From contig CAIKYB010000037.1 in assembly GCA_903831575.1 (NCBI GenBank), positions 142,398 to 206,397 of the forward strand: a stretch of DNA of 64,000 nucleotides. Reading direction: 5' to 3'. Below, one piece after another: positions 2,103 through 7,165 of the stretch. How positions within the stretch are numbered: the first letter of the stretch is position 1; each line of letters opens with the position of its first letter. The notes below the pieces were generated by a model. It saw only the letters and a program-made list of their open reading frames with translations. It did no database searches and had not been told where the DNA came from. The DNA is from an uncultured Bacteroidota bacterium. GTDB lineage: Bacteria; Bacteroidota; Bacteroidia; Chitinophagales; Chitinophagaceae. The translations under genes and the position numbers were made by a program.

Positions 2103-3179
2103 TCATTTTTTATTGAAATCCTTCATCATTTCAATAAATTCATCAAAAAGATAATTGGCATCTTCCGGACCAGGACTTGCTTCAGGGTGATATTGCACAG
2201 AAAAACAAGAATGTATTTTATGTCGGAAACCCTCATTGGTTTTATCATTCAAAGCGATATGCGTTTCTTCCAAATCGGTATTTTTTAATGATTCCTGATC
2301 GACAGCATAACCGTGATTTTGAGAAGTGATTGCTACTTTATTGCTTCTAAGATCCAAAACAGGATGGTTTCCGCCTCTGTGTCCGAATTTCAGTTTGAAT
2401 GTTTTTGCACCGCAAGCCAAACCAATAAGCTGATGTCCAAGACATATTCCAAAAATGGGAACTTTTCCAAGCAGGCCCTGAATCATCTCTTTTGCTCCTT
2501 CTACATCCTGCGGATCTCCGGGACCGTTAGAAAGCATAATCCCATCTGGATTCATCATTAAAATTTCTGCTGAAGTAGTGTGATAAGAAACTACTGTTAT
2601 ATCGCAATCTCTTCTGGAAAGCTCTCTGATTATTCCCAGTTTAGAGCCAAAATCTATTAGTACCACTTTGTATCCTCTCCCCGGACTTGCATAAGCAGTT
2701 TTAGTTGAAACCTGTTGTACCTGATTTGTAGGTAAAGTATTATTTTTTAATTCTGCAATAACAGTTTCGTCAGTTCTTTCTATATCTACAATCTTTCCTT
2801 TTATTACACCATGGTTACGAATTAATCTAGTCAACTTACGGGTATCAATACCCGAAATTCCAGATATTTTTCTTTTTTGAAAGAATTCATCAACCGTCAT
2901 AATACTCCTGAAATTGGAAGGCAAATCAGAAACTTCTTTTACAATAAGTCCTTTTATCGCCGGCTCCATAGATTCGTAATCGTCTCGGTTGATTCCGTAA
3001 TTCCCAATAAGTGGATAAGTCATACAAACAATTTGTCCACAGTAAGAAGGATCGGAAATAAGCTCCTGATAACCTGTCATTCCGGTATTAAAAACTACTT
3101 CTCCTTCAATCTCCTGATTGAATCCAAAACTTTCTCCAAGGAAAATTTCACCCGACTCTAAAACTAATTTTTTCTTCAT
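2103..3179 (-). CDS. carA: Carbamoyl-phosphate synthase small subunit
   Basis: LVLESGEIFLGESFGF..., GNYGINRDDYES, class-I amidotransferase GICLGHQLIGLACG and QYHPEASPGP. Start moved from the track's 3206 to the internal Met at 3179, directly after the pyrC stop. Confidence 0.95.
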   Translation of the reverse strand: MKKKLVLESGEIFLGESFGFNQEIEGEVVFNTGMTGYQELISDPSYCGQIVCMTYPLIGNYGINRDDYESMEPAIKGLIVKEVSDLPSNFRSIMTVDEFFQKRKISGISGIDTRKLTRLIRNHGVIKGKIVDIERTDETVIAELKNNTLPTNQVQQVSTKTAYASPGRGYKVVLIDFGSKLGIIRELSRRDCDITVVSYHTTSAEILMMNPDGIMLSNGPGDPQDVEGAKEMIQGLLGKVPIFGICLGHQLIGLACGAKTFKLKFGHRGGNHPVLDLRSNKVAITSQNHGYAVDQESLKNTDLEETHIALNDKTNEGFRHKIHSCFSVQYHPEASPGPEDANYLFDEFIEMMKDFNKK

Positions 3180-3180
3180 T

Positions 3181-4458
3181 TTATTTTTTATAAACAATTT
3201 TTCCATTTACCAAAGTCATCACAGGCCAACCATAACACAACCATCCATCAAAAGGCGTATTTTTCCCTTTTGAAACAAATGCATTTTTATCCACTTTTTC
3301 GGCAATGTCAAGATTGATTAGGGTAAGATCGGCACAATAACCTGCTTTAATTTTGCCAATGTTGGAGAGTTTGAAAACGGCTGCAGGTTTTATTGTCATC
3401 CAATCAACCAACTGCTTCAATGTCCATTTTCCGGTCTTTACAAATTTGGTATAAAGAACAGGAAATGCGGTCTCAAATCCTACTATGCCGAAAGGGGAAT
3501 CATACATTCCCTTAGATTTTTCTTCTTCAGTATGTGGTGCATGATCCGTGGCGATACAATCGATTACGCCATCCTCAAGTCCTTTTATTAAAGATAATCT
3601 GTCTTCTTTGGATCGAAGTGGAGGATTCATTTTGTAATTCGTATCAGAAGAGATAATGTCTTCTTCTGTTAGCACCAGGTGATGAGGAGAGACTTCTGCA
3701 GTTACATTAATTCCTGCTTTTTTCGCATCAGCAATTACTCTAACGGATTCTTTGCTGGAAACATGACAAACATGATAATGTGCGCCTGTTGCCTCTGCTA
3801 ATAAAATATCCCGCGCAATATGCACTGATTCGCAAACACTTGGAATTCCTTTCAAGCCAAGCTCTTGCGCTTTTTTACCGTCATGAATACACCCTCCTAA
3901 TATCAATGAGTTATCTTCACAATGAGCTGCAATTGGCAATTGGATTTTTGCAACTTCCTGCATGGCTTTATACATTACTCCGGCCTGCTGAATTCCAACT
4001 CCATCATCAGTAAAACCTACAGCTCCTTTATCTTTCAGCACTTTAAAATTAGTTAATTTTTCTCCCTTTGAATCTTCTGTAATGGCTCCATAAGGTCTTA
4101 TTTTCACCACAGCTGATTCTTTAATCCTTAGCAAAAGATCATCAAAACGTTCTCCCCTATCTGGAACTGGTTTAGTATTGGGCATTGGGCAGATGGTAGT
4201 AAAGCCACCTTTTGCAGCTGCCATTGAACCAGTTTTTATCGTTTCTTTATGTTCACCGCCTGGCTCGCGAAGATGCACATGTACATCAATAAAACCAGCA
4301 CTTACAAATAAACCGCCTGCGTCTATCAATTCTCCTTCATAGGAAATACCAGAAGCAATCTCTGAAATAATTCCGTTTTCAATTTTAATATCAGTAGACA
4401 CAATATCTCCATTATCTGAAAGAATTTTAGCGTTTTTTAGAATTAAGATTTCTTTCAT
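3181..4458 (-). CDS. pyrC: Dihydroorotase
   Basis: [42 protein letters not shown] motifs. Confidence 0.95.
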
Positions 4459-4475: not shown

Positions 4476-5372
4476 TTATTTTGTTATAAAATTGTAGCCT
4501 AGATTTTCTAGTGTGTCTTTCAAAATAGCCATTCTTGCATAGACACCGTTTTCCATTTGTTTAAAAATTCTTGAACGCGTACATTCAACAAGATTAGAAT
4601 CTATCTCTACATCTCTGTTTACTGGTGCAGGATGCATAATGATAGCATGGGATTTCATCCTCTTCTCTCTTTCTACTGTTAATCCATATTTTTTGAGGTA
4701 TTCGCTGGTATTAATTGTTGTTTTAGTGTCATGTCTTTCATGCTGGATCCGTAAAAGCATCAATACGTCAACAGTTTCTATTAAGTCATCTAACTCCTGA
4801 AAAACCCCACTACTAACCGACTCCGCATCAAACCATTCTTTAGGGCCAGAAAAGCTCACTTTGGCTCCCAATTTTTGTAAAGCTTCTGCGTTGGAATTGG
4901 CAACTCTACTGTGTTTTAAATCTCCTACAATACCAACATGTAGCCCTTCAAATTTGCCAAATTCCTGTTTGATTGTCATCAAATCAAGCATAGTTTGAGA
5001 GGGATGATTTCCTGTGCCGTCACCACCATTAATTATTGCGATTTCAATGCCTTGTAATTCATCAAAATAACGATCTTTTTTATGCCTGATAACTACTAAA
5101 TTTACACCTATGGCTTTCAGTGTTTTTATGGTGTCATACAAAGTTTCTCCTTTGTTCACAGAACTTTGATTGACATCAAAAGGGATTACATTTAATCCTA
5201 GTTTCCTTTCGGCTACTTCAAAACTAGTCTTGGTTCTTGTACTGTCTTCAAAAAATAAATTTGATACATACACATCACTATTTGGCCTCATGATTTTCCC
5301 TTCCGAAAATGACAAGGCCTCATCCACTATTTTGTATATTTTTTCGGTTGACAGTTCAGTTATGGTTAACAT
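4476..5372 (-). CDS. pyrB: Aspartate carbamoyltransferase catalytic subunit
   Basis: [48 protein letters not shown] motifs. Confidence 0.96.
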
Positions 5373-5378
5373 GACAAT

Positions 5379-5489
5379 TTAAAATTTGGGCAAAAAAAAA
5401 CGAAATCGTAAAAGATTTCGTTTTGAAAATATTTGATTAAGGCTTTTAAAGCCCGTGTAATGATTAATGAAAGGTATTTTTTTCTCCAT
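5379..5489 (-). CDS. Putative 36-aa pyr leader peptide overlapping the attenuator (MEKKIPFINHYTGFKSLNQIFSKRNLLRFRFFLPKF)
   Basis: Hand-translated from the minus strand: ATG at 5489, TAA at 5381-5379, 6 nt before the pyrB ATG. Reads through the hairpin and T-tract at 5392-5424. Confidence 0.45.
   Translation of the reverse strand: MEKKIPFINHYTGFKSLNQIFSKRNLLRFRFFLPKF
5392..5424 (-). terminator. Intrinsic terminator / attenuator in the pyrB leader
   Basis: Minus strand AAAACGAAATC-TTTTAC-GATTTCGTTTT followed by a continuous T-tract, ending about 20 nt before the pyrB start codon. Confidence 0.7.
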
Positions 5490-5495
5490 CGAATG

Positions 5496-5503
5496 CAAAT
5501 ATA
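5496..5503 (-). promoter_or_regulatory. Bacteroidota-type -7 element TATATTTG for the pyr operon
   Basis: Exact match to TAnnTTTG on the minus strand; no clear -33 TTTG seen. Confidence 0.45.
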
Positions 5504-5602
5504 CTACTTTTTTAAAACCTAAAAATTGTAATTCTGATTTTTTTTCAACATTTTTATTGGGTTCCCGTTAATAAGTGTGATTTGAGATTTTATTTGAGAT
5601 AA

Positions 5603-6400
5603 TTATTTAATTAAAGAGTCAATTGTATTGTCCAAGTCGTTGATAGTCGTTGGCCCTAATCCACTAACATAATATGATATGATTGAATTCTTATCAATTA
5701 TCAGATGAGTTGGAAAAGAGTTTACATTATATAGTTGTACTTCCTCCTTACTGTCTGGGATAATATTATATTTATAAGTATTAGTTTTTAGGAATGTATC
5801 AATTTTTCTTTTATCATTCATTGCAAAACCAAGAAAAACAACTTCTTTATCTTTATATTTCTCAACCAATTCATTTAACTCAGGCATTTCCATAACGCAA
5901 GGTTTACATTCCACAAACCAAAAATTAATTACAATTACTTTCCCTTTGAGATTTTGAAGAGAATACTTTTTTCCGAAAATGTCAGTAACATCAAATGGCA
6001 ATGCTTCTTTTCCTATGAAATCATTTTTGCTTTGCATATTGTCATCCATTTCAATCATTTGGCTTTTCTCTAAAGGTGTTGCTTTTCTTAACACAAATGC
6101 TTTTACTTCTCTATTACTGTCAATAAAAGGATCAGGAATATAGTCTCTGGACATCATCACTTTCATAAAATCATCTCCTTGAATTAACGAAAGACTTTCA
6201 GAATAAACAGGAGTTGTAACTCCATCTAACATTAAAGGTTTATCAGGATCAAGGTCTTTAAAGTCTGCTTTTTTTAAGCCTGTCAATGGATTATTTTTTG
6301 GTATTGCTAAAGTATCTTTTATTTTATTCGCTAACTGAGCATTGCTATAATTAAAACTAATTACAAGTGTAAAAGCAAGGATCCATTTTTTTTTAATCAT
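5603..6400 (-). CDS. TlpA-like thioredoxin-fold (redoxin) protein, exported
   Basis: N-terminal signal peptide; KGKVIVINFWFVECKPCVMEMPELNEL (CxxC) thioredoxin motif. Confidence 0.85.
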   Translation of the reverse strand: MIKKKWILAFTLVISFNYSNAQLANKIKDTLAIPKNNPLTGLKKADFKDLDPDKPLMLDGVTTPVYSESLSLIQGDDFMKVMMSRDYIPDPFIDSNREVKAFVLRKATPLEKSQMIEMDDNMQSKNDFIGKEALPFDVTDIFGKKYSLQNLKGKVIVINFWFVECKPCVMEMPELNELVEKYKDKEVVFLGFAMNDKRKIDTFLKTNTYKYNIIPDSKEEVQLYNVNSFPTHLIIDKNSIISYYVSGLGPTTINDLDNTIDSLIK

Positions 6401-6550: not shown

Positions 6551-7165
6551 TTACTTCCTGTAAAAAATTCTACATCCATAAGATTCCGTTTCAGGGGCTG
6601 AAACCTTTTTATTGTCAAGTAATTCATCAACAGCATTTGCAATATAAGGAGTTGCTAAATTAGGATGTTCTCCATTGTCATCAATAGCACCGGTGTATTT
6701 AATAATCCAGGTATTTTTCTCTTTCCATATTACATAGGCCTGTGGTGTATGTTTGGCTTCGAAATTTTTTCCAATAATTTGTTGCCCATCCTGCAAATAA
6801 TCGAAATTGAATTTTTCTGATTTTGCTCTTTTTTGCATGAGGTCAAATGTTTCTTCCTTGTATAATAAAGAATCCATTGAATTTACTGCTAATAATGGAA
6901 CATTTAATGGTTTGTACTTTTTATTAAGTGCATTTAATCTTTTTGTATACAATTTAGCAAATGGACAATGGTTGCAGGTGAATACGACTATAAACCCTTT
7001 TGCGTTTTTGAAATTTGATAATGATATTATGGAGTTGTCTGTGTTTCTTAATTTGAAATCATTTATAATTTTGCCTGCTTTTTTTGTATGGGGATCATTT
7101 GAACTAGTAAAACTATAAGCGATGGTTATAAAAATAAATACAAAAATATTTTTTGTTATTTTCAT
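6551..7165 (-). CDS. Thioredoxin-family (AhpC/TSA-like redoxin) protein
   Basis: Signal peptide; FTCNHCPFAKLYTKRLNALNKKY; KHTPQAYVIWK. Confidence 0.8.
   Translation of the reverse strand: MKITKNIFVFIFITIAYSFTSSNDPHTKKAGKIINDFKLRNTDNSIISLSNFKNAKGFIVVFTCNHCPFAKLYTKRLNALNKKYKPLNVPLLAVNSMDSLLYKEETFDLMQKRAKSEKFNFDYLQDGQQIIGKNFEAKHTPQAYVIWKEKNTWIIKYTGAIDDNGEHPNLATPYIANAVDELLDNKKVSAPETESYGCRIFYRK

Follow-up and report, generated by a model that had tools for sequence, protein, structure and literature searches.

How is pyrimidine biosynthesis controlled in a member of the Chitinophagaceae whose pyr operon is preceded by a short open reading frame running through a terminator? The window, that is, the whole stretch of 64,000 nt analyzed here, carries on its reverse strand pyrB, encoding an aspartate carbamoyltransferase of the Bacillus/Weeksellaceae type (4476–5372), followed by pyrC (dihydroorotase, 3181–4458), carA (carbamoyl-phosphate synthase small subunit, 2103–3206) and carB (2–2041), which is incomplete and runs off the left window edge. 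A first-pass annotation had read these genes as a pyrB-pyrC-carA-carB operon under a leader-peptide attenuator; pyrB, pyrC and carA are confirmed, while carB remains open at the edge. Two co-oriented thioredoxin-fold genes with ResA-like matches lie upstream of the operon (5603–6400 and 6551–7165).

Ahead of pyrB and on the same strand, a promoter −7 box, TATATTTG, can be read directly at 5496–5503, with a T-rich −33 region at ∼5519–5525. A 6-nt spacer and the ATG of the leader ORF follow (5487–5495, the ATG itself at 5489–5487). This ORF of 36 codons (5379–5489) crosses an intrinsic terminator and stops at a TAA (5381–5379), leaving a gap of 6 nt (5378–5373) before the pyrB ATG at 5372. The terminator, our candidate attenuator, occupies 5392–5424 including its T tract, with a stem-loop at 5424–5397 of 11 bp and a 6-nt loop. 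Between start codon and terminator lie a central hairpin, GGGCTT-TAA-AAGCCT (5440–5454), proposed as a pause hairpin from the predicted fold and comparison with relatives, and an AU-rich tract, CAAATATTTTC (5425–5435), proposed as a site where RNA polymerase pauses at U addition. The promoter, ORF and stop position given by the annotation were correct base for base, and both the terminator and the second small hairpin that it described were recovered.

By itself, the window sequence appears to prove little. Its terminator has the longest stem among eight terminator-like sites in 12 kb, and because shuffled sequence reaches a mean of 5.8 such sites, its presence alone is weak evidence. The predicted fold of the leader contains both hairpins, with a z of −1.67 against shuffles that is unremarkable for one sequence, and an Rfam scan of the leader region returned chance matches only. 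Evidence beyond chance comes from relatives.

We collected 154 pyrB upstream regions and set apart nine, with PyrB ∼52% identical, that carry a different leader. The remaining 145 regions, all of the window's PyrB type and representing 110 distinct leaders, share one layout without exception: a TAnnTTTG promoter, the ATG, the central hairpin, a U-rich tract, the intrinsic terminator and pyrB. Carriers are Weeksellaceae plus four Chitinophagaceae metagenome-assembled genomes (MAGs), and most leaders come from the one family of Chryseobacterium, Kaistella, Riemerella, Bergeyella and kin. The nine regions set apart (L259–L267) mostly have a frame of ∼58–92 codons between stops that passes through another terminator (AACATCTTA..TAAGATGTTTTTTTT) and reaches within ∼25–50 nt of pyrB, with a promoter box ∼250–310 nt upstream. 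They may represent another leader of this kind that was put together independently; L261, without a matching terminator, is doubtful.

In the common layout, a T-rich peak lies 21–23 nt upstream of the −7 box across the 110 leaders. The distance from TTTG to ATG is 6 nt in 103 of them, 5 nt in six and 7 nt in one; offsets were tried from 5 nt upward, so the search order did not favor 6 nt. The two bases preceding the ATG are pyrimidine-purine in 109/110 leaders. Since the flavobacterial −7 box occupies −12 to −5 (PMC9723704), transcription is predicted to start ∼1–2 nt before the leader ATG, and the leader mRNA would be essentially leaderless, with a 5′ UTR of ∼1–2 nt. Such a conserved arrangement is unusual, as the leaderless share of F. 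psychrophilum mRNAs was put at only 5.5% (PMC9723704). The annotation had listed the near-leaderless start as a caveat; it is a conserved feature.

We built a covariance model of the leader (R1), which mainly scores sequence because its RNAalifold structure contains the terminator only. In each carrier genome, R1 gave a single strong match, located at pyrB; a same-genus genome with a native pyrR gave none. Over 396 genomes of the class, its only matches were the window genome and two members of one other family; of these two, G555 has a Chryseobacterium-type leader at pyrB and a PyrB of Weeksellaceae type. Among other Bacteroidia lacking PyrR, ten of which have a PyrB match, the leader was found in none except G555. 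One genome of this PyrR-less group (G657, locus L272) appears to carry, immediately ahead of pyrB, a sequence resembling pyrR that may be frameshifted.

The distribution of PyrR sets the carriers apart from the window's own family. PyrR exceeds the cut-off in 59 of 61 Chitinophagaceae genomes, and in many of them pyrR lies close to pyrB by coordinates. It is absent from the window genome (best match 1.8e-4), from its three same-genus relatives (G284, G258 and G283, one of them with a completeness of just 73%) and from each of the 249 sampled Weeksellaceae genomes. The PyrR-binding RNA (RF00515) was detected in none of the carriers tested, only in the Bacillus controls L072 and L077. The annotation had seen neither a pyrR gene nor a PyrR-binding loop, and both absences hold up. 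Near a native Chitinophagaceae pyrB, we observed a match to the Flavo-1 RNA (L126, 3067–3155).

PyrB itself points to a foreign origin of the operon. The window PyrB is only ∼42% identical to that of its own family, compared with 81%–86% to three same-genus MAGs, up to 72% to Chryseobacterium and kin and 60%–64% to Bacillus. In the PyrB tree, the window sequence and those of the three MAGs group together in a clade (95/93) that joins Weeksellaceae inside the Bacillus-type group, while native Chitinophagaceae PyrB is separate. This PyrB type occurs in only 4 of 94 same-genus genomes. The simplest history indicated by these comparisons is that the Chitinophagaceae carriers acquired the operon horizontally together with its leader. 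The element is not general in Chitinophagia, where the annotation had proposed to look for it, and belongs to Weeksellaceae and to this acquired operon. Gene order differs between versions: carA directly follows pyrB in Chryseobacterium (L042, 4001–6059), and a 425-codon gene, pyrC in the window, lies between pyrB and carA in the Chitinophagaceae version (L039, L040 and the window). No PyrB match was found in 33 of the 249 Weeksellaceae and 6 of the 94 same-genus genomes, which are perhaps pyrimidine auxotrophs or incomplete assemblies.

The reading frame departs far from chance. In all 110 distinct leaders it stays open at least until 13 nt before the terminator, against 4 and 29 for the other frames, with a joint chance of ∼1e-15 over 30 representatives under 75% identity. 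The stop codon falls 2 nt inside the terminator stem (+2) in 66/110 leaders; elsewhere it ranges from −13, as in L213, to beyond the terminator, and in the window and the three relatives closest to it the frame continues through the terminator. In these three relatives (L039, L040 and L041), the leader frame also extends over the pyrB start codon, hinting that translation of leader and pyrB is coupled.

In principle, the terminator could simply end transcripts of the upstream gene, which in the window is co-oriented, or act as a constitutive roadblock, the ORFs being due to chance. But in 22 of 29 relatives this gene is oriented divergently, and ending its transcripts cannot be the terminator's general role. 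The terminator also lies downstream of the conserved promoter and the frames are open far beyond chance, and we give this explanation the least credence of all. Two of the outcomes listed in the annotation as refuting its own reading, a terminator serving only the upstream gene and an ORF not conserved while the hairpin is, are not what the relatives show: in most of them the terminator cannot serve that gene, and the ORF is conserved.

While the frame is kept, the peptide is not. Leader peptides are unrelated between clades, and within clades there is no synonymous excess in leader codons (23 of 116 substitutions synonymous versus 28.2 expected). The alignment check proposed by the annotation was therefore satisfied for the frame, conserved together with the terminator, and not for the synonymous bias that it had anticipated. 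Because the frame is maintained without such a bias, the act of translating the leader, rather than its product, appears to matter, and the peptide sequence seems to be under no detectable selection. This weighs against an arrest-peptide attenuator, in which the nascent peptide would sense a ligand in the ribosome tunnel: while the ORF is short and often ends at the terminator base, as such a peptide might, peptides from different clades are not related and no purifying selection is seen, and leaders L050, L057 and L210, which extend to the terminator or beyond, end differently. We regard that possibility as very slim.

The leader region folds better than shuffles across 30 lineages (Stouffer z −8.5), modestly in each. 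The central hairpin, whose end lies a median 49 nt from the leader ATG, occurs as 45 different helix sequences with variable loops. In an alignment of 21 leaders selected for equal length, four of its six pairs change on both sides in a compensatory manner, and its covariation was 0.301, compared with 0.179 (SD 0.030) when shuffled and ≤0.19 when slid. Some lineages, among them those represented by L068, L069, L219 and L242, have only a weak hairpin. Such covariation would also be expected if an unknown RNA-binding protein or ligand acted on the hairpin to control termination, as PyrR does, with the ORF being incidental. A binding site is hard to reconcile with so many helix sequences and loops; there was no Rfam match, although PyrR sites were detected in the Bacillus controls, PyrR is absent, and the 110/110 open frames would be left unexplained. 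We consider such a factor quite improbable.

A hairpin-stabilized pause of the his/trp type would place the RNA 3′ end 9–16 nt past the hairpin. U makes up 65% of the bases at positions 9–16 after the central hairpin, and the motif TATTT is located 5–12 nt past it in 101/110 leaders. More broadly, U accounts for 53% of the last 20 nt before the terminator versus 28% earlier, with the caveat that U-rich tracts are easily found in AT-rich leaders.

A search for an antiterminator found nothing convincing. In general, the terminator has no stable pairing to compete with, which disfavors an antiterminator model, and alternative pairing with a terminator arm is weak (∼−4 versus ∼−12 kcal/mol). This bears on the rival that keeps translation coupling and replaces UTP by another signal, such as amino-acid or charged-tRNA shortage, growth rate or general ribosome supply. 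Frame conservation requires translation only, many leaders end in Asn/Asp-Ile-Tyr/Phe codons, and attenuation by amino-acid leader peptides has been suggested for F. psychrophilum (PMC9723704). Yet by inspection the leader peptides contain no run of codons for one regulated amino acid, conserved or otherwise, and the window leader lacks the Asp/Asn-Ile-Tyr ending. Without an antiterminator for a stalled ribosome to favor, an amino-acid stall would lead to more termination, the opposite of what a response to starvation needs. What is conserved is a U-rich tract, and the operon makes UTP. A signal other than UTP is thus unlikely, though it is the alternative we take most seriously.

Altogether, we think it probable that a UTP-sensing, translation-coupled transcription attenuator of the pyrBI/pyrL type controls pyrB-pyrC-carA-carB. 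No expression data are available; the support drawn from sequence comparison consists of the shared layout, a frame kept without peptide conservation, the covarying hairpin and the lack of an antiterminator and of PyrR. The annotation's leader-peptide attenuator remains the best-supported reading, with frame and terminator kept together in ∼30 divergent lineages and UTP sensing inferred. In the model that we propose, transcription would start within 1–2 nt of the leader ATG, a site we infer, and a ribosome would load on the 5′ end upon its emergence. RNA polymerase would pass the small hairpin and then meet the U-rich tract 9–16 nt beyond. At low UTP, it would pause there, an inferred step like UTP sensing itself, allowing the leading ribosome to catch up and follow. 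Once it has reached or passed the stop codon at the base of the terminator, a ribosome would cover the 5′ arm, leaving the terminator unfolded and the operon transcribed, although this ribosome-dependent readthrough is inferred, and translation and termination likewise lack experimental data. With plentiful UTP, polymerase would outrun the ribosome, the terminator would fold and transcription would stop.

We lean, by a small margin over even odds, toward a history in which this self-contained UTP sensor, combining a leaderless ORF with a hairpin-timed pause, had its own origin within Bacteroidota, separate from that of enterobacterial pyrL. It would have taken the place of PyrR once Weeksellaceae had received a pyr operon of the Bacillus type, and a few Chitinophagaceae would later have gained sensor and operon together, at the expense of their pyrR-pyrB system. 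This suggests that a repressor-free control can replace a dedicated RNA-binding protein and travel with its operon by horizontal transfer. If true, transcription and translation would be tightly coupled from a leaderless start in a phylum with little Shine-Dalgarno use, and the leader would offer a natural, compact reporter of ribosome/RNA polymerase coupling in Bacteroidota from a leaderless mRNA. We found no prior description of a pyrB leader in Bacteroidota in the open-access papers searched, subscription papers being outside our scope.

Among known systems, PyrR attenuation in Bacillus also controls pyr genes by a terminator, and PyrB is Bacillus-like here. Unlike Bacillus and native Chitinophagaceae, which carry PyrR, the carriers have neither PyrR nor an RF00515 site, and translation appears to replace the RNA-binding protein. 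The his/trp/thr attenuators share a short leader ORF, an early pause-type hairpin and a terminator, but here there is no antiterminator fold, regulatory codon run or peptide conservation. The closest parallel is E. coli pyrBI, where at low UTP polymerase pauses and the ribosome blocks terminator folding (PMC10135430; PMC5021804). There, the 44-codon pyrL crosses its intrinsic terminator and ends 3 nt before pyrB, compared with 6 nt in the window; the leader is likewise U-rich, without a separate antiterminator, and the regulated gene is again pyrB. A hairpin pause has been described for pyrL (PMC10135430), while the pause mapped in another study was not hairpin-dependent (PMC9291695). The anatomy of the leaders examined here agrees with the pyrL mechanism at each point, and on current evidence they would work as pyrL does. 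The systems differ in that the start is leaderless here, whereas E. coli has a 5′ UTR with GGAGG; ATG and terminator are 65–84 nt apart here and 88 nt in E. coli; the stop usually lies at the terminator base in Weeksellaceae; and a small hairpin precedes the U tract by 5–12 nt. PyrB is of a different type, and the genes after it are pyrC-carA-carB or carA in place of pyrI. The peptides show no visible similarity to pyrL, although they vary even within Weeksellaceae. Since PyrB type and promoter differ from the enterobacterial ones, independent origin seems more likely than shared ancestry, which these sequences cannot decide. Bacteroidota would join the groups with a pyrL-type attenuator, and on the best reading their version would add to this known kind a leaderless start, a stop at the terminator base and a hairpin-timed pause.
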